Shown in pieces: positions 5,507 to 23,144 of a DNA stretch of 23,549 nt. The first letter of the stretch is position 1; every line of letters begins with the position of its first letter. The notes under the pieces were generated by a model, which was not told the origin of the DNA, searched no databases, and saw only the letters and a list, made by a program, of their open reading frames with translations. The position numbers were made by a program, and so were the translations under genes. The DNA comes from a virus, in the IMG/VR virus record IMGVR_UViG_3300036791_000244, positions 1 through 23,549 of that record. One strand, given 5' to 3'.

Positions 5507-7633
5507 TCATCCTCCATAGGGCCCTGTCGCCGGCGTGAAGTTGCCGACGTACTGCGCTTGACCCTTGCTGATGCGAACCTCGTCGATGTAGCCGTTGAAA
5601 TAGTTTGTTTGTCCTGCACCCACGGCGAGCGTCCCGCCGGCGGCTTGAATCGTCCCGCTCGCGGTCCACGCCGCTTGCTGGACGCCGTCGTAGTAGGTCG
5701 TAAAGTTATTACCCATGCGCTGCACCGCGCGATGATGCCAAGCGTTCAAGGCGATCGGCCCCATCGACGCGGCGCTGGCGATGTCCCAACTGCTTCCGTT
5801 CGACGTGGCATAGAATAGAGCCGTCCCGCTGCCGCCATCCCATCCGGCGATCCACGGTGAAAATGTCACGCCCCAGGCGCGGGACATGGCCGGGTAGCCG
5901 CCGCCCGATGCAACTCTGTATTCCCACCAATCGAGCGTGAAGTTGCCGTTACCGAAATCCCAATCGGCGACGTTGCCGCCGTTGAGCCACCAACTGCCTC
6001 CGTTACCCTGGAAGCAGGAGGCGCCGAATTTCGAGATGGCGCCGGTCAGAGTGGCGCCGCCTCCCGTCGACCACGGCTTCGGATTGTTGATAGCGCTATC
6101 GGTGATCGTGGCGCTGCCGGCACCGGTGTCGAGATGCAGCAGCGACGTGGCATAACCGAAGAGCGTCTCATTTGGCCAGGACGGCGGCGCTCCAAGCGTC
6201 GGCCCGTAGGGCGCAGACGGCGGCGTGAAGTTCGCTTGCCATCGCGCCGTATCCGATATTCGAAACTCGTCGAAGAGGCCCGGGGTGACTCCCGTCGAAT
6301 CCGAATTGCCGCCGATGTCGAAGAGATCGTTATTGACCCAAAGCCCTCCGCTCAAGGCTGCCGAATTTTGCAGTACGCCGTTCATGTAGACGTAGATCGT
6401 TTGATTCCGCATCACGAGCGCAATGTGGGTCCACGCGTTGAGCGGGATTGTTCCGCAGGTAAGATTGTTGACTGCCCACGTCGAGCCGTCCAACGACATG
6501 TAGAGTGTCAGCACTCCGCTGTTGTCGAACAAAACAAACGGCGAATATGAAGTGGTCGTATTCCGTTTCGTAACGAGCCCGGCGAGGCCGGTAGTGAACC
6601 TGAAGTACCAAAAATCGATCGTCCAGTTCTGAGCATAGAAGTCAAAGTCAGTGCAGTTCCAGTAAGCTGCGCGCCCGGTGTTGGCTGTTGGTTGGAAGCA
6701 CGAAGCGCCAAATTTGAAGTTGCCAGTCGTGATTTGCGCGGCGGCGATGCCGGCCGGTTGAGGAATTCGCACGCCGCCGAGCCTGCCGCGCGCGTCGTCG
6801 TTGATCGTCGTGCTGGCGTTCGCGCCCTCGAAGTGCAGCAGCAGCGTCGTCGCCTCGTCATTGCCGCCGTTCAACACGCCCCAATATGGCTCGCGCGGCG
6901 GCGCGAACGCCCCGGAGTATCGCGCGGTCTGCGAGAATCGAAACTCGACGAGCGACCCGCTCCATGGGCTGTTGAGATTGTTGTTGTTGCCTAAGATCAG
7001 ACCCGTGCTGTCGTTGCGATAGGGCTGCGACGCGTTGGTCCACGTTGCTTGCTGCGCGCCGTCGAGATAGGTCGTCCAAGTGCTCCCCTTTTTTTGGACG
7101 GCGAGATGATGCCACGCGGTGATCGTGGCGGTCCCCATCGATTGCCCGGCCGCAATATCCCAGCTTGTCCCGTTCGAGCTGGCAAAGAATTGCCACGTGC
7201 CCGAATTCTGCTGGATGAGATAGGCGCCGAAGCTGTTGCTCTCGATCTTGGAAAGGACCGCGCCGACCTGCGACACGAACGGATAGACCCAAAGATCGAT
7301 AGTGAAATCGCCTGCCGGCCACACCCTCGCTTGCGCTGCGCCCGTTCCCTGCCGGCCGAGATAGTTGTTGCCAGTGACGCGCTGGTCGAACGTGCACGCG
7401 CGATGAAACCACGACGGGCGCACAGGACCGCCCTGGATCATGACGTTGCCGAGGGCGCCCCAACTATCGCCCGCGGCCGCGGCGCCGTCGTCGGTGATGA
7501 AATTCCCTGAAGTGGCAAGGTTCCATCCGCTCGGCTGCTTGAAATGCAGCAGGCTCGTCGTGAAGCCATCGTTGCCGTAGGTGACCGGCGGCGGCGTGCC
7601 GACCTTGCAGACAACAGTATTGCCCGGAAGCAT
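5507..7633 (-). CDS. Triple LamG (concanavalin A-like) virion adhesin
   Basis: The 708-residue protein holds three LamG-like jelly-roll units at about 26-250, 259-485 and 495-708. Each begins TSLLHF, TTLLLHF or TSLLHL, contains W[TH]H[LIR]A[VL] (AWHHLAVQ, AWTHIALV, AWHHRAVQ) and TTY.DG or IYVYMNG, and ends in the marker E[FV]R[FI]S..(A)..Y.F.PP..PY. Phage LamG proteins are thought to bind surface glycans. I start it at 7633, where ATG overlaps the preceding stop as TGATG, not at the upstream ATG at 7660 inside the previous gene. As the last large protein of the tail operon it probably decorates fibres or contacts host surface sugars. Confidence 0.85.
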   Translation of the reverse strand: MLPGNTVVCKVGTPPPVTYGNDGFTTSLLHFKQPSGWNLATSGNFITDDGAAAAGDSWGALGNVMIQGGPVRPSWFHRACTFDQRVTGNNYLGRQGTGAAQARVWPAGDFTIDLWVYPFVSQVGAVLSKIESNSFGAYLIQQNSGTWQFFASSNGTSWDIAAGQSMGTATITAWHHLAVQKKGSTWTTYLDGAQQATWTNASQPYRNDSTGLILGNNNNLNSPWSGSLVEFRFSQTARYSGAFAPPREPYWGVLNGGNDEATTLLLHFEGANASTTINDDARGRLGGVRIPQPAGIAAAQITTGNFKFGASCFQPTANTGRAAYWNCTDFDFYAQNWTIDFWYFRFTTGLAGLVTKRNTTTSYSPFVLFDNSGVLTLYMSLDGSTWAVNNLTCGTIPLNAWTHIALVMRNQTIYVYMNGVLQNSAALSGGLWVNNDLFDIGGNSDSTGVTPGLFDEFRISDTARWQANFTPPSAPYGPTLGAPPSWPNETLFGYATSLLHLDTGAGSATITDSAINNPKPWSTGGGATLTGAISKFGASCFQGNGGSWWLNGGNVADWDFGNGNFTLDWWEYRVASGGGYPAMSRAWGVTFSPWIAGWDGGSGTALFYATSNGSSWDIASAASMGPIALNAWHHRAVQRMGNNFTTYYDGVQQAAWTASGTIQAAGGTLAVGAGQTNYFNGYIDEVRISKGQAQYVGNFTPATGPYGG

Positions 7634-8748
7634 CAGGCGAAGTTCCCGGTGAAAAAGCACAGCACGATGCTGCTGCTGAGGCAGACATAAGAAAAGCAGT
7701 CGGTGGCGCCGGCGGTCGTCGTCAAAGTAGGCTTCGCGCCTCCCGGAAATTTATAAGCCGAGCCCCAGGTCGTGATCGTGCGAGAGCCGGTCGCGTCTTG
7801 CACCAAATAGATCACGCCTTTTTGCCCGGCCTTGGCGTTTGTTGGATTGGCCAGCGTCCTACCGGTCGCGCCCAGCGTCCAACTGAAGTCAATGCCGGTG
7901 TTGAAATCCGGTGTCACCGTCGCCGCGTCGGTGAGCGTCACCGGCGCCGCCGCCGTCCACACCGTGCTGCCTGACAAATATTTAAGCGCGGTGCCGTTTA
8001 GATATTGGGCGGCAGTCGCCTGTGCCGGAATGTTGTTGTCAACATATTGTTTGGTCGCTGCCTGAAGCGCGCTGCCGGGATCGGCATTGAGCGTCAAAGC
8101 GCCGGTCAGCGTACCGCCGGCAAGCTTCAGATAGCGCCCGTCCGAAATCGTGGCGCTGTAGACCAGCGTCCATGTCGGTGTCGATCCGGTCCGCCCGTAG
8201 GTGTTGCCGTCCGTTGGCGCTTCCGGGACGGGTCCCGGTGGTCCGGTCGGGCCGGTGGCGCCGGTCGAGCCGGTCGGGCCAGCGGGGCCGATCGGGCCAG
8301 CGGGGCCGATCAACGAAACGCCAGCCGGCCATGCGCCCGAGGCCTTCGGGCCGTAGAGCAAATTTGCGGCGGTGTCGATGTAGCTGTCACCGTCGACGCC
8401 GAGCGAGCTGCTCGGCGCGCCAGTGCCGTAATGCATCGTATTGCCCGGTGCGCCTGTCGGCCCGGTCGGGCCGGGCACGCCCGGATTGCCTTGCGGGCCG
8501 CTCGGGCCCGCCCCGCCTGCCGGCCCCTGCGGTCCTGCCGGTCCCGGCTGACCTGCCGGACCGACGCCGCCCGGCCCCATCGGCCCTTGCGGGCCGGGAG
8601 GTCCCATCGGTCCTTGTGCGCCAGTCGGACCGGCCGGGCCGATCGGTGCGACCGCCAAGACCTGATCTTCCGCCGTCGCGCTCTTGATGAGCGTGATGCG
8701 CGACGTGCCGCTCGACAAATAGAAACGCTCGCCGCCGCCGTTGCTCAT
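7633..8748 (-). CDS. Collagen-like tail fibre with two Gly-X-Y stretches
   Basis: The 371-residue protein has a short N-terminal domain (1-35), a Gly-X-Y collagen stretch (about 36-103), a spacer typical of phage collagen proteins ([16 protein letters not shown]), a second Gly-X-Y stretch (about 147-173), then a tail-fibre repeat ([17 protein letters not shown] followed by ATKQYVDN) and a C-terminal beta-rich tip (from about 265) with [13 protein letters not shown]. It should trimerise as a rod with a distal knob. It overlaps the LamG gene by TGATG and follows another collagen-like gene, so the two probably make related parts of the fibre assembly. Confidence 0.85.
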
Positions 8749-8763
8749 TTTAGGGTCTCGCGA

Positions 8764-9495
8764 TCAGCGCAAGCAGATATATCCGATGTACGCCGTTCCG
8801 CTCGGCGACCCGCTCTTCGTCCATTGCAGCGTGAAGCCGTCCGGGTCCAACGATTGAACCGCTCCGTTGATATAATTGCTGCCGTCGAGAGCGAGGAAGA
8901 TTGAACCGCTGCCCGTCGTATTCCATACGTTCGAGCCTCTACCGAGAGGATCGGGGCTCTGTGCGAAGGCGCGATCCCCCACTGACGCACTGCGGACGCC
9001 GATCGAGAAAGACACTTGCCCGTTGATGACGCCGAAGAGTAGGACGAGGTGCGGCTTGAATCCGATGCCGGTGATTGATTGAATCGCGCCACTCGCGTCG
9101 CCCACGTTCTTGCTGATGAGGCCGGTCTCCGACCCGTTGCCCCAAATCGTGTCGCCGTCCGCGCCCGAATGTTTGGTCAAAATCTGAGCAATCAAACCGC
9201 CCGCGGGCGAGCCCAGGCCGGCAGGACCTTGAAGCCCCTGCGGGCCGGTCGGGCCAGCAGCTCCGGTCGGGCCAGTCGGGCCGGCCGGGCCGGCCGGGCC
9301 CGCGGGGCCAGTCGGGCCAGGAGGGCCGTTTGGCGGCCCTTGCGGGCCTTGCGGCCCTTGCGGACCCGTCGCGCCCGGCGGGCCTGTACCGCCCGGGCCT
9401 TGCGGGCCTTGCGGCCCGGGAGGCCCCATCGGTCCCTCCGGCCCGGTTGGTCCCATGGGACCCACGCCCGAGAGCGTCAAGAGTTGATCGCTCAT
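8764..9495 (-). CDS. Collagen-like tail fibre/tip protein
   Basis: The 243-residue protein opens with an 11-residue N-terminus like that of its downstream neighbour ([11 protein letters not shown] against [12 protein letters not shown]). A Gly-X-Y collagen stretch covers about residues 12-98, with one interruption (PPNGPPG). A C-terminal beta-rich domain follows (about 100-243) with [21 protein letters not shown], and a final [11 protein letters not shown] and [10 protein letters not shown]. This C-terminal domain resembles receptor-facing domains of many phage fibres. Its ATG overlaps the upstream stop by 4 bp. No tail-fibre chaperone gene is present nearby. Confidence 0.8.
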
Positions 9496-17740: not shown

Positions 17741-20581
17741 TTACTCTTGCATCTGCGCCAGCGAGCTAGCCGCCGGCTCCATTTGTTGTTGACGATTGAC
17801 CGAGACGCGTTTGAACAAGCCTTTGGCTCCGGCATCGACGCGCGTGCCGCGCGGCGCGTTGACGCTGACATTGAGGTCCGCGCTGCCGGTGACCGTGTGC
17901 GTCATCCCGCGATCGATCCCGGTGCGATCGGCGACCGCTGAATCGAGTATCTGATGGCGAATTTGATACTGGCCCGGACGCGTGCCGATGGTGATAGGCC
18001 GACTGGAGACGACGTCGCGTCCGTACTGACCAACGCCATGCTCCGGCCCTTCCGGATTGAATTGATTGGCGCCGACGCCGCGAAACCCGATTATCTCGCC
18101 TGACGCATTCTTAATCGGGACAGCTCCCGTGACGTGCGATCCCGTCGAGCCGACGCCAGTGCCTTGCCTTACGGCGATGTTGATCGCGTTTGGATCGCTC
18201 GAATATCCGGCACCTCCGACGCCGCCGAAATTATTCCAATTCGATGCCACCGCCGGATCACGGGGCGGAATGCCGCCGTGCTCCTTGACGACCGATGCCA
18301 TAAACTGTCCGCACGTCGCTTCGCTGAGGTTGATGCCGTGCGCCATCATGTAGGCGTGGATATTGTGAGGCTTGGCGCCGGCGAGCGTCATAGCCTCAAG
18401 ATCGGACTGGAAGTGAGACGGGACCGCGTTGCTTTGCGGCGGCATGCCGGGCGGCGCTCCGGCTGCTGTGGTGGGCGCCGAGAGCTGATGCTGGAATTTC
18501 GTGACCGCCCCGGGCCATTGGCGATTGGTGCCGCCGGGATCGTTGCGGGCGCCGACCGGTGCGTAGGTACGCGCCATGCCGGCGATCGTACCGCCGCCGC
18601 GCGCGTAGTTGCGCCCGATCGCTTGGCCGGCGGCGCTGATGCCCTCCCCGATCGAGGGAAAACTCGTGTACTTGCCGTGCTGAAATATTCCCGCTGGATT
18701 GAGCCGCGTCGCCAGCAGATGCGACTTGCCGCGACCAGTCTCCTCCGCCATGACAGCGGCCATCACGGACGGCGGTACGTTGTTGGCCTTTGCGGCGGCG
18801 ACGACGTTCTCGTACTCGCCGCCGAGGGGAGTGCCGGAGAACATCTTGTCGTAGGCCGCCCGGCTGAGATCGCCCTCATCTCCTGCGGCGCCGCCGCCGC
18901 CTCCGCCTCGCCTGACCGGTTCGCCAGTGATGCGCTGAGCCTGCGCAAGCGCGCCCATGCTGCGAAGATCGTACGGAACGCGGCCGGTCGAAGCGCCCCA
19001 CGCGCCGCTGACGCCGGCCGGCCCGGGCACGTTCTCGTCCGCACCCGGTCCGGTGCCGGGACCAACTCTTTCGGGCTCGCCAGTGAGGCGCTGAATCTGC
19101 GCCGCAACTGCGGGGTTGCGCGACCCATACGGGACGCGGCCGCCCGAAGCTCCCCATGCGCTGCCGGTGGCGCCCCAGCCGGGGAGATCGCCCATCGGGT
19201 TCGAAAGGCCGCTCATGCGCATGTTGCCGGGGAGCGTCAGGTAGTTGACGAGCTTTTTCATCTCGCCCGTCAATTCCTTCGTGACCTTTGTTTGCTCCTC
19301 GATCGAGCTGACGCCGTGCGCGGGCGTGACGGTCTCGCCCGCATGCAGCATGGCGTACATATCGCGCGTGACAATACCGCCGTGTTGATGCGGCGCGCCG
19401 AGGACCGGATAGTCCCCGTACATCTTCCGCAGCAAATCCCCTGTCGGCGTTCCCGAGGTGGCTGCCGCCGGAGGCTGCGGGGCCATTTGTTTGAACAGTT
19501 GAGATTTCTCGTGCGGGGCCGCGGGCGCGTTCGGCCCGATGCCGATCAGCTCCCAGAGGTTTCGCAGCTTCGCCGTCGCGTCATCGACCGCGGTCGAAAC
19601 CAGCTTCACCGCCTTTTCGACGCCCGCCAACACGGGTACGAGCGTCGCGATGGCGAGCCCGCCGATGTCATCCTTGATGTGCGTCCACTCCTGTCCGATC
19701 AAGGTCGTCAAGCGCCAGAATTCTTTCGCGTCATCGATTCTCTGCTGCGCTCTCTTATTCTCCTCGTCGTCCGTGATCCTGATCTGCTCTTTGAGCTTCC
19801 ATAGATTGTTGACGTGGAAAATCTGACTGTCGAAATTGCGGACCGCCTCCTCGCCGGCAGCTTTTGCGACCTGCGGATCGAGACCGGGGAACCGCCTGCG
19901 CGCCGCCTCCTCTGCGTTTCGTTTGACGAATTCATTGATCCGTTGCAGGTCCTGCATGCCCTGCTGCGCAGATTCGCGCGGCATCCTCCCAAGCAGCAGC
20001 TCCATTTCCTCTTTTTGCCGAGCATTCATGCTCGGAATGCCCTTGAGTGCCTCCTCTCTGACTTTGCTGAAGACGCGCGTCAGGTCGACTTGCGCTTCTG
20101 TGAAGCCGGTAATGTCTTGCGTGGCCTCCGCGGCGTTGGAACCGGCCCGCTCGTAAGCCTCACCCATTTCTCGGATTTGCGCCGCGGGCATTTGCGTCCG
20201 TTCCGCGACGTGACCCAGCTCTACTAATTTTGCTGAAAGCGGACTGAGCGAGTCGACCACTTTTTTGAGCCCGAGCCCGAGCGCGGCGAGGCCGATCACG
20301 AGGCCGCCAGCGCCGACGCCGAAAGCGGCAAAGGCCGCGGTGCCGCTGCGGATGCCGGTCACGAATTCCGGCACGACGGACTTCGCCGCCTTTTCCATCG
20401 TTGCCAGGAAAGGCGCAAAACCGCGCTGCACCTCGTCGACGCTGCGGCGGAAGCGATTCATGTTATCGCTGGCCTGCCCGCCGCCGATCTGCTGCATCGA
20501 CTGTTGTAGATTGCGCAAGCCCGCCGACGCGTTGTCGACGAGCGTGACGGTCAATCTTAGTTCGTCGGCTTCAGTCGCCAT
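17741..20581 (-). CDS. Tape measure protein with two predicted wall-degrading domains
   Basis: The 946-residue protein sets tail length. The N-terminus has helical, coiled-coil-prone sequence and a hydrophobic stretch (about 85-110, FAAFGVGAGGLVIGLAALGL) typical of tape measures. A low-complexity middle carries a tandem repeat (about 472-506 and 523-558, AWGAS.GRVPY). Residues about 583-700 resemble a glucosaminidase or lysozyme-like domain: VPPSVMAAVMAEETGRGKSH, LNPAGIFQHGKYTSFPSIGE, YAPVGARNDPGGTN. Residues about 737-850 resemble an NlpC/P60-like or related Cys peptidase: ATCGQFMASVV (C757) and GSHVTGAVPI (H816). Such domains would open peptidoglycan during DNA entry. The start overlaps the -1 frame chaperone by 11 bp. 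Confidence 0.85.
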   Translation of the reverse strand: MATEADELRLTVTLVDNASAGLRNLQQSMQQIGGGQASDNMNRFRRSVDEVQRGFAPFLATMEKAAKSVVPEFVTGIRSGTAAFAAFGVGAGGLVIGLAALGLGLKKVVDSLSPLSAKLVELGHVAERTQMPAAQIREMGEAYERAGSNAAEATQDITGFTEAQVDLTRVFSKVREEALKGIPSMNARQKEEMELLLGRMPRESAQQGMQDLQRINEFVKRNAEEAARRRFPGLDPQVAKAAGEEAVRNFDSQIFHVNNLWKLKEQIRITDDEENKRAQQRIDDAKEFWRLTTLIGQEWTHIKDDIGGLAIATLVPVLAGVEKAVKLVSTAVDDATAKLRNLWELIGIGPNAPAAPHEKSQLFKQMAPQPPAAATSGTPTGDLLRKMYGDYPVLGAPHQHGGIVTRDMYAMLHAGETVTPAHGVSSIEEQTKVTKELTGEMKKLVNYLTLPGNMRMSGLSNPMGDLPGWGATGSAWGASGGRVPYGSRNPAVAAQIQRLTGEPERVGPGTGPGADENVPGPAGVSGAWGASTGRVPYDLRSMGALAQAQRITGEPVRRGGGGGGAAGDEGDLSRAAYDKMFSGTPLGGEYENVVAAAKANNVPPSVMAAVMAEETGRGKSHLLATRLNPAGIFQHGKYTSFPSIGEGISAAGQAIGRNYARGGGTIAGMARTYAPVGARNDPGGTNRQWPGAVTKFQHQLSAPTTAAGAPPGMPPQSNAVPSHFQSDLEAMTLAGAKPHNIHAYMMAHGINLSEATCGQFMASVVKEHGGIPPRDPAVASNWNNFGGVGGAGYSSDPNAINIAVRQGTGVGSTGSHVTGAVPIKNASGEIIGFRGVGANQFNPEGPEHGVGQYGRDVVSSRPITIGTRPGQYQIRHQILDSAVADRTGIDRGMTHTVTGSADLNVSVNAPRGTRVDAGAKGLFKRVSVNRQQQMEPAASSLAQMQE

Positions 20582-20744
20582 CGTCGTCCCTGGAGCGCTG
20601 GCGCAGCTCCGCGATCTTCTTTGTCCAATAGACGTGAGTGAAGACGTCCGTCAGCGGCATCGAGAGAAAGGTCGCCGGCGATTGGTGATACCAGTGCGCG
20701 AGCCAGTAGCAATCGAGGACCAACATTTCCTCGTCGCCCTTCAT
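20571..20744 (-). CDS. Tail assembly chaperone, -1 frame extension
   Basis: This frame encodes a short protein with LDCYWLAHWYHQSPATFL and VFTHVYWTKKIAEL, a pattern recurring in the T-extension part of tail chaperones. It can be read in two ways. One is free initiation at the ATG at 20744, overlapping the 0-frame stop (ATGA). The other is a -1 frameshift at the T7 run (20774-20768) from the upstream chaperone gene, giving a fusion of about 196 residues. The second matches the known G/GT strategy of tailed phages. The frame ends within the start of the tape measure gene. Confidence 0.65.
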   Translation of the reverse strand: MKGDEEMLVLDCYWLAHWYHQSPATFLSMPLTDVFTHVYWTKKIAELRQRSRDDDGD

Positions 20745-21160
20745 TCCCACGCCTCCGATGAAGGAAGAAAAAAACGGAAGAGCTTCCATGCGATCGTCTG
20801 CCAATCGCGCGGATCGATCTGGTCGAGGATCGGAGTCAGCGTGCCGGAGAGGGCGCCGATCATGGCGTGCATTTTCGGCTCGTCGAAAACAAAGCGCCCG
20901 TTCTCGTCCATCTTGAGCGGGATGCCGACGCGGTTGAGATCGCCGCCGGTTGGTTGCCGGAGCGAAAGCTCGTGCAGCGTGCCGCGTGTCGGATCGTTGA
21001 TCGGCTTGTACTTGAGTTTGACGACCAACGGCCAGACCTCCGGCGGCAGCTCTGGCTTGGTGGGCGCCGGCGCCGGCGTCGTCGGCGGCTCGGCCGCCTC
21101 GACGAGTTGGAAGCCCTCGCGGAGTGGCTGGCCTTCGGCGATGTTTGTTGGTTTGTTCAT
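20741..21160 (-). CDS. Tail assembly chaperone (Mu gp41-like)
   Basis: The 139-residue protein is of the Mu gp41 tail assembly type. It has a low-complexity N-terminus (about 20-38, EAAEPPTTPAPAPTKPELPP), then a conserved core (VVKLKYKPINDPTRGTLHEL, SLRQPTGGDLNRVGIP, a typical DL-rich segment) and C-terminal DWQTIAWKLFRFFLPSSEAWE. It lies between tube and tape measure, as in Mu. It contains a T7 slip site 27 nt before its stop, so a fraction of product should continue in the -1 frame. Tail chaperones of this kind bind the tape measure during tail assembly. Confidence 0.8.
   Translation of the reverse strand: MNKPTNIAEGQPLREGFQLVEAAEPPTTPAPAPTKPELPPEVWPLVVKLKYKPINDPTRGTLHELSLRQPTGGDLNRVGIPLKMDENGRFVFDEPKMHAMIGALSGTLTPILDQIDPRDWQTIAWKLFRFFLPSSEAWE
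20768..20774 (-). promoter_or_regulatory. Slippery T7 site for -1 ribosomal frameshift
   Basis: On the coding strand the frame-0 codons are CGT TTT TTT CTT, so the last T of CGT plus two TTT codons form the heptamer T TTT TTT, a good X XXY YYZ slip site. A -1 shift continues as TCT TCC TTC into a 65-codon extension that ends inside the tape measure start. The position between tube and tape measure is where tail chaperone frameshifts occur. Mu itself is reported to use a -2 shift. Confidence 0.75.
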
Positions 21161-21164
21161 GCGC

Positions 21165-21533
21165 TTATCCCAGGTCGATCTCGGAGCAGGTCACGCCTTC
21201 CCAGCGGACGCGGACTTGCCCGTCGCGGGTGTTGGCGTCGAAGCCGGCCTTCGAGCAGGCCTGCCCGAGCGTGTACTGCTTCTTGTTGGCGAGCTGCGCG
21301 ACGACGGTGACGTTGACCTGATTCGCGAGGTCCGCGAGGTTGAGCGCGGGCACCGTCGAAATATCGCCCTCTATGTAGGGGACCCTCGGCAGTTCTTGGT
21401 AGCCGTGGATTCCGTCCTGCCCGGCGATCATCGTACGCTCGATCACTGATGGGCTGACGGTGAAGTTCCCGCGCAGCGCCATTTGGTTGCCATCGACCAT
21501 GCAAAGGGCGATGCCGGCAAATCTCTCTGCCAT
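21165..21533 (-). CDS. Tail tube protein (Mu gpM-like)
   Basis: The 122-residue protein has the Mu-type tail tube pattern (PF10618): start FAGIALCMVDGNQMALRGNF, then SVIERTMIAGQDGIHGYQEL, YIEGDISTVPALNLADL, and the C-terminal DGQVRVRWEGVTCSEI. It polymerises into the inner tube of the contractile tail. AGGAG lies 8-9 nt before the ATG. It follows the sheath gene, as expected. Confidence 0.9.
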   Translation of the reverse strand: MAERFAGIALCMVDGNQMALRGNFTVSPSVIERTMIAGQDGIHGYQELPRVPYIEGDISTVPALNLADLANQVNVTVVAQLANKKQYTLGQACSKAGFDANTRDGQVRVRWEGVTCSEIDLG

Positions 21534-21572: not shown

Positions 21573-23144
21573 TTAGACCGCCGGCAGCACACCGGTCACG
21601 CCGACCGGGCTCGGCGCGGTGATTAGTTGATCGACTCCGGTATCGTACTGGAGCCGGAATTGCGCCAGCACCGCGAAGATGCGGAGCTGATTGATGAGGT
21701 CCGGCGGGTAGAGCACGTTGACGCGGTTCGGGTCATTGGGGTCGCGCTCGACCAACAAGAATTTTCCAAAGTTGGCCACGTCCTCCACAAGACCGTTGAA
21801 CTCATCGAGCGCATATTGCGCCATCAGCTCGGCCTTGATGATGCCGGGCGTGACGATCGCCTGTCCGGGCCCGAAGCGCGTGCCATCGTTGGCAAGCTTG
21901 CAGCGGGCGAATTTGGTGGTGATCACAGCGCGCTGATTGCGCAACAGCTTCGCCAATGTCGCCAGCGTCGTGACCAACTCATACGCATCGTCTGGGTTGC
22001 CATATAGATTGAGCTGGTAGGTTGTTTGTTCGCGAGCGATCATGGGTTGATTGTCCGTGCCGGCCTTTTGGATCGCGAGGCCCGCCTCGGCTAGACCATT
22101 CAGCTCTATGAAGTCGAAGCGGCTTTGCAGTGGCGCGGACTTGATCTTGTTGAGCGACAACGTCTGCAACGGTCTCGCCGGATCGTTTGCCAAGGCCCGC
22201 TGCGCTTTTCCGACATAGGCCGCGGCCCATTCGAAATTGGGCGACGGGCTCGCGGTCTCGAAGGCCATGATCGACATGACGCCGGAATTGTTGGTCGCGC
22301 CGAAAGTGAGCAGTGGACTGTAATCGCCGCGCTTGGCCGAGAAGACATGGCCGAAGAGTTGGCGTTGCCAGCCCCATCGCCCGGTATCTGAGAAGCCATA
22401 CTCCTCTTCCCAATCCATGAGCGAGGTTGAGTCGGTATAAGGCATGGCGACGTACTCGAACGGCTGATCGCCGATGCTGCTGATCGCGGCGGTGAAATCG
22501 GGGACGCCCGCGCCGCCCGTGAGCATGCCGGTAGCCGGCAGAGTGAGCACGAGCCCGGGCGGCATGATCTCGCCGCCGATTGTGCCGTAATAATTCAGGA
22601 GGACAGTGATGTCGTTTCCGCTGATGCCTTTCCATAGCGCGGTGAGCGTGACGATATTGGTGGCCACGGTAGCGACCACCGGCAGATCGAAGGCTGCGTT
22701 GATCGCGTCGTGGATCGCAGTGGCGACTATCAACGCCGTATCGGTCGCCCCGACATTGACCGCTATATGATCGCCGGCAATGTAGAGATGGATCGTTCCC
22801 GCATCGGTGGGCGGCGTAGTGACCGTGATCGTTCCAGTCGCCGCGGTCGCTCCTACCGCCTCCGGCACCGGCAAGCCCCACACTTCATTGGCGAAGTTGT
22901 TGGCGAAGTAGGCACGGAACATCCGCGAAAGCTGCGAGCCCTGACCGAAGGCGGCGTCCGCTTGCGCTTGCGAGCCGATGGCGATCGGAACGTTCGGCTT
23001 AGCTTTGCCGATCGTGCTCAGAAAAACTCCGGTCAGCAGCGCGCGAAGCCCGAGCGTCGGCAGCCCCGCCATGCTCGGATCGACTTCGACCCAATACAAC
23101 GGAACCTTGATATCGGAGGGGATTTGCGAAAATGAGATCGGCAT
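21573..23144 (-). CDS. Contractile tail sheath protein (Mu gpL-like)
   Basis: The 523-residue protein matches the Mu gpL sheath family. It starts ISFSQIPSDIKVPLYWVEVD, has FAN.VWGLPVPEAVGATAATG, a predicted insertion domain (about 90-220), the central DWEEEYGFSDTGRWGWQRQL region, and a typical C-terminal region LVTTLATLAKLLRNQRAVIT and LAQFRLQYDTGVDQLITAP. It builds the contracting outer tail tube that drives the spike through the envelope. AGGAGAACG precedes the ATG. It is the longest conserved gene of the tail assembly block apart from the tape measure. Confidence 0.92.
   Translation of the reverse strand: MPISFSQIPSDIKVPLYWVEVDPSMAGLPTLGLRALLTGVFLSTIGKAKPNVPIAIGSQAQADAAFGQGSQLSRMFRAYFANNFANEVWGLPVPEAVGATAATGTITVTTPPTDAGTIHLYIAGDHIAVNVGATDTALIVATAIHDAINAAFDLPVVATVATNIVTLTALWKGISGNDITVLLNYYGTIGGEIMPPGLVLTLPATGMLTGGAGVPDFTAAISSIGDQPFEYVAMPYTDSTSLMDWEEEYGFSDTGRWGWQRQLFGHVFSAKRGDYSPLLTFGATNNSGVMSIMAFETASPSPNFEWAAAYVGKAQRALANDPARPLQTLSLNKIKSAPLQSRFDFIELNGLAEAGLAIQKAGTDNQPMIAREQTTYQLNLYGNPDDAYELVTTLATLAKLLRNQRAVITTKFARCKLANDGTRFGPGQAIVTPGIIKAELMAQYALDEFNGLVEDVANFGKFLLVERDPNDPNRVNVLYPPDLINQLRIFAVLAQFRLQYDTGVDQLITAPSPVGVTGVLPAV

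Follow-up and report, generated by a model that had tools for sequence, protein, structure and literature searches.

A conserved T-run heptamer very probably directs −1 frameshifting in the tail assembly chaperone gene of a soil phage with a Mu-type tail

Comparative analysis of a 23,549-base virus record (the whole stretch, referred to below as the window) revealed a locus that is very probably subject to programmed −1 frameshifting, by which a tail assembly chaperone would be produced in two forms, a short one of 139 aa and a long one of 196 aa. We consider the frameshift to be programmed, and not a product of chance, because the relatives of this locus keep the slip site, its register and the −1 frame of the extension. 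The late genes of the window are located on the minus strand in the order found in Mu (sheath, tube, chaperone, tape measure, DNA-circularisation protein, gp44-like hub, gp45, gp46, baseplate J-like protein and gp48), and the features relevant to this analysis are as follows.

21573–23144, minus strand: tail sheath (Mu gpL analogue), matched by PF04984 (6.1e-10) and phrog_165 (8.2e-157).
21165–21533, minus strand: tail tube protein (Mu gpM analogue), matched by PF10618 Tail_tube (4.6e-25).
20741–21160, minus strand: frame-0 ORF of 139 aa, predicted tail assembly chaperone (gpE / gp41 / gpG analogue), from Pfam, PHROG, alignment and fold match.
20768–20774, minus strand: slippery heptamer T TTT TTT, seen in the sequence and kept among relatives.
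20741–20757, minus strand: GGAGG-N7-ATGA, a possible restart for the second ORF seen in the window only, with no ATG there in the other distinct loci.
20571–20768, minus strand: −1 frame extension (T-like domain) of 65 codons plus stop, from homologous extensions, codon-position changes and a profile match.
17741–20581, minus strand: tape measure gene, from weak matches to tape measure families phrog_8125 and phrog_2276, lytic tail protein matches and its position in the tail module.

The phage is a soil phage, and its host is probably Bradyrhizobium or a near relative, since the closest cellular relatives of the sheath are those of Bradyrhizobium prophages (63–72% identity; L074–L081) and a relative of the chaperone is present in both of the two Bradyrhizobium genomes searched. 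Several other features of the tail module were observed. The C-terminal half of the tape measure protein (17741–20581, minus strand) contains a glucosaminidase-like stretch (PF01832, 5.7e-6, under the curated cut-off) and a match of the tail-lysozyme type (phrog_1259, 4.6e-26). The tail genes end with a gene (5507–7660, minus strand) whose 717-aa product contains Laminin_G_3 (concanavalin-like lectin) stretches in three places and may be a receptor-binding protein; adjacent to it are two proteins with collagen-like GPxGPx repeats (7633–9495, minus strand).

The frame-0 ORF lies between the tail tube (21165–21533) and tape measure (17741–20581) genes, as expected for a chaperone of this family. 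Its product matched the Pfam family PF10109 Phage_TAC_7 ('E, or 41 or 14') with 26.9 bits (cut-off 25) and the tail protein family phrog_166 (2.2e-7), and it could be aligned with Mu gp41, SfV orf13 and P2 E; in NCBIfam, neither the chaperone nor the extension was matched. A structure model of the frame-0 protein, predicted from an alignment of the window and viral-contig loci, had a mean pLDDT of 85.5. No fold match to this model was found in the PDB. In a viral fold library the matches were tail and tape-measure chaperones (best match a tape measure chaperone, E 5e-3), whose weak E-values make them supportive only.

The original prediction placed a T7 run in the register T TTT TTT within the frame-0 chaperone gene, followed by a 65-codon extension in the −1 frame that ends inside the start of the tape measure gene, and it regarded the two ORFs as a chaperone pair joined by a −1 shift, as in lambda G/GT. 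The sequence elements were confirmed, and the reading as a joined pair is supported. The run is located near the 3′ end of the chaperone gene, at 20774–20768 on the minus strand, in the register CG[T TTT TTT] CTT. Beyond it, the −1 frame reads SSFIGGVGMKGDEEMLVLDCYW... for 65 codons up to a stop at 20573–20571, so that its 3′ end overlaps the tape measure start (ATG at 20581), and the predicted fusion comprises 131 + 65 = 196 aa. The run and the −1 frame are both kept by the relatives. Taken alone, a T7 run is weak evidence, as the window contains four of them against 1.31 expected from shuffling; the chance of T TTT TTN arising at the two Phe codons of the slip site, calculated from the codon usage of the window, is approximately 0.011.

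In order to assess the conservation of the site we used the sheath as a query, since scans for close relatives with the chaperone or the extension gave no matches. The sheath search yielded 56 viral contigs; together with the window, 45 loci contained both the chaperone and the extension, and 28 of these were distinct. In all 28 (window included) the extension lies in the −1 frame, and in 25 of them the corresponding Phe-Phe codons form T TTT TTN; the three others are L022 (C TTT TTT), L036 (T TTT TGG) and L054 (C CCA AAC). The conservation of the run in an alignment of related chaperone genes, which had been proposed as a check of the prediction, is thus borne out. The opposing outcome, in which close relatives lose the T7 run while the second ORF retains a start of its own, is the reverse of what we found, as the relatives keep both the run and the −1 frame.

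The GC-rich genes of the relatives normally prefer TTC for Phe. At the slip site, the Phe codons are TTT in 48 cases and TTC in six; elsewhere in the chaperone, tube and sheath genes the counts are 158 and 530, respectively. Codon usage predicts T TTT TTN in 1.4 of 26 loci, compared with 25 of 26 observed, although the loci are kin and these counts are therefore not independent events. A chance origin of the T7 run was rejected on the basis of this codon bias and the excess of observed over expected sites. In a wider set of loci collected around the window, a T6 or T7 run with a −1 extension was present in 145 of 167 distinct loci.

RNA polymerase can slip on homopolymer runs, and the −1 product could in principle be made by transcriptional rather than ribosomal slippage on the T7 run. 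We regard this as very improbable. In many relatives the heptamer has only six T residues and ends in C, G or A (49 TTTTTTC, 16 TTTTTTG and 14 TTTTTTA). Furthermore, loci that lack the T run often bear another heptamer of the X XXY YYZ type (C CCA AAG, G GGT TTT, A AAT TTT or C CCA AAC), which is not a homopolymer, and in these the extension keeps to the −1 frame, in agreement with tandem tRNA slippage. With respect to stimulators of the dnaX-like kind, single folds of the downstream RNA gave no consistent structure (z values of −0.36 and −1.50 for the window, scattered among the relatives), and no conserved Shine-Dalgarno-like element was seen by eye upstream.

Variants of the arrangement were noted in individual loci. 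Gilliamella prophages (L101, L103, L107, L112, L115 and L116) carry C CCA AAG in place of the T run, and their extension remains in the −1 frame. At the 3′ end of the L201 chaperone gene, A TTT TTT C is present at the slip position, yet the extension is in the +1/−2 frame, which could reflect either an assembly indel or a genuine change of frame. In Paraburkholderia phage IPK (L062) and Caballeronia cordobensis (L126) the Phe-Phe codons are TTC TTC, no slip site is present, and the second ORFs lie in differing relative frames (−1 and +1). The second ORF of these two loci may start at its own GTG (GTG GAC GA), and the frameshift looks to have been lost, consistent with the report that phage KS10 lacks the slip site (PMC2628397).

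The pattern of substitutions shows that the −1 extension evolves as a protein: when loci whose extensions share 60% identity or more were compared pairwise, the changes at codon positions 1, 2 and 3 numbered 202, 120 and 450, and this concentration at the third position indicates selection on the encoded amino acids. Nearly all extensions share a motif of the form LDCYxLAxxYHxxPxxFLxM. Profile comparison linked the extensions of the window group to those of the SfV group (96.8%) and the latter to the Mu group (93.9%), the direct match between the window and Mu groups being weaker (77.8%). The encoded domain is conserved, but a start codon specific to it is not.

An alternative entry into the second ORF is suggested by the window itself. 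An ATG (20744–20742) overlaps the TGA of the chaperone gene (20743–20741), and a GGAGG is located 7 nt upstream of it, which is a good spacing for a coupled restart. If this were the sole route, the T-like domain would be made as a free protein and the T7 run would be incidental. Such an explanation is scarcely credible, since among the 28 distinct loci the ATGA start is found in the window alone and the T run in 25. Four other distinct loci have an ATG at a different place, and in 10 of the 28 there is no ATG, GTG or TTG from 15 bases upstream of the slip site to the conserved domain. The −1 frame of six loci is closed by a stop just a few codons ahead of the slip site, and entry into this frame must consequently occur at or after the T run.

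The original prediction also held that both modes could operate, the frameshift yielding the fusion and the restart the free T-like domain. Both signals are physically present in the window, but the restart signal is not conserved, and the GGAGG may merely reflect coding, as L018 and L035 have GGAGGAGG at this position, which encodes Glu-Glu in frame 0. We therefore find no support for the dual mode and judge it unlikely. On the evidence of the compared sequences, frameshifting is the conserved route to the second ORF, and the restart is a possibility specific to the window.

A −1 shift in a Mu-type locus had been thought notable, given the −2 shift of Mu. The sampled loci do not bear this out. 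Among 245 distinct Mu-type sheath loci, gathered around two centres (the window and the sheath of Mu), so that the proportions are not population frequencies, and sorted by a simple classifier for which some G-run loci are ambiguous (e.g. GAG GGG CGA TAG), 154 have a T6/T7 run with a −1 extension, 52 a G run with a −2 extension, 15 other heptamers with a −1 extension, and 24 belong to none of these classes. Named phages with related sheaths fall into two groups: (i) Mu, Vibrio 1.028.O and Shewanella MuM16-2, with CGG GGG CGA and a −2/+1 extension, and (ii) SfV, ST64B, AH07, YeP1, PG1, PY223, DVM-2008, BgVeeders33, phiNP and YPCBV-1, with T TTT TTN and a −1 extension, as also in P2. The CGG GGG CGA site and the −2 frame extension typical of Mu are absent from the window, which has the T7 site and the −1 frame. 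In nine loci (L259, L264–L268, L270, L273 and L276) the chaperone gene ends in GAG GGG CGA TAG, and several of these have both other frames open; their extension looks to be in the Mu-type −2 frame, at a site unlike CGG GGG CGA.

A tree of sheath sequences (97 rows) grouped the window with the −1 loci L003 and L018. The −1/−2 label, assigned by hand from the sequences for a few loci, requires at least four changes on this tree, two of which are forced by well-supported branches; an earlier FastTree tree without the window, also with some hand-assigned labels, required five, three of them forced. It therefore seems that the shift has changed direction on more than one occasion in Mu-type tails.

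The site of the window is the usual arrangement for such tails and belongs to an already known kind, with no new mechanism, since T6/T7 sites with a −1 shift have been published for P2-like phages and are common in Mu-type tails. The lambda G/GT slip sequence, GGGAAAG, differs from that of the window. The comparison with lambda concerns the functional scheme, in which a short chaperone is accompanied by a rarer form extended by a −1 shift (PMC5009743). Gene E / E+E' of P2 shares with the window the PF10109 family, a position directly before the tape measure gene, the −1 direction (with an annotated site at the same place) and the T-run class of heptamer; it differs in having T TTT TTG (T6G) instead of T7, in its weak identity (24%) and in that the sheath and tube of the window are of the Mu/SfV type. 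Published T-run sites include T6G in P2, T7G in Smp131 and T7C in Stenotrophomonas and Xanthomonas prophages (PMC3931495). SfV, ST64B, phiNP and Pantoea AH07 resemble the window in having T TTT TTN, a sheath and a tube of the Mu type, and a −1 extension (unannotated in their records) that runs as far as the start of the tape measure gene; their frame-0 proteins are shorter (approx. 90–110 aa vs 139) and the sheaths are approx. 41–42% identical. Mu gp41 shares gene order and family, and its extension domain is weakly related (78% profile match), whereas its site is CGG GGG CGA and its extension lies in −2/+1 (−2 according to PMC5009743). A −1 shift in lambda and P2 and a −2 shift in Mu are given in that review (PMC5009743), and Xu et al. 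2004 is the source named for −1 '(or −2 in Mu)' in the paper on KS10 (PMC2628397).

From these comparisons we infer the slippage, its efficiency and a role in tail assembly. Most ribosomes would terminate at the frame-0 TGA and release the 139-aa short form. On T TTT TTT, a minority would move back by one base, each of the two tRNA-Phe pairing anew with UUU, and go on to produce the 196-aa form, which bears the T-like domain. If the lambda gpG/gpGT pair is a guide, the tape measure protein would be coated by numerous short and a few long copies, which would also recruit tube subunits.

The relevance of these observations is modest and concerns phage annotation and the evolution of recoding. 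In phages of this group the chaperone gene should be annotated with the 65-codon extension included; among Mu-type tails the −1 shift is common and the −2 shift concentrated near Mu. If, which is unlikely, the phage uses a newly arisen restart (SD-ATGA) beside the conserved frameshift and thereby also makes a free T-like domain, this could represent an intermediate toward lineages that seemingly lack a slip site, such as those of Burkholderiales (L062 and L126) and KS10 (PMC2628397).
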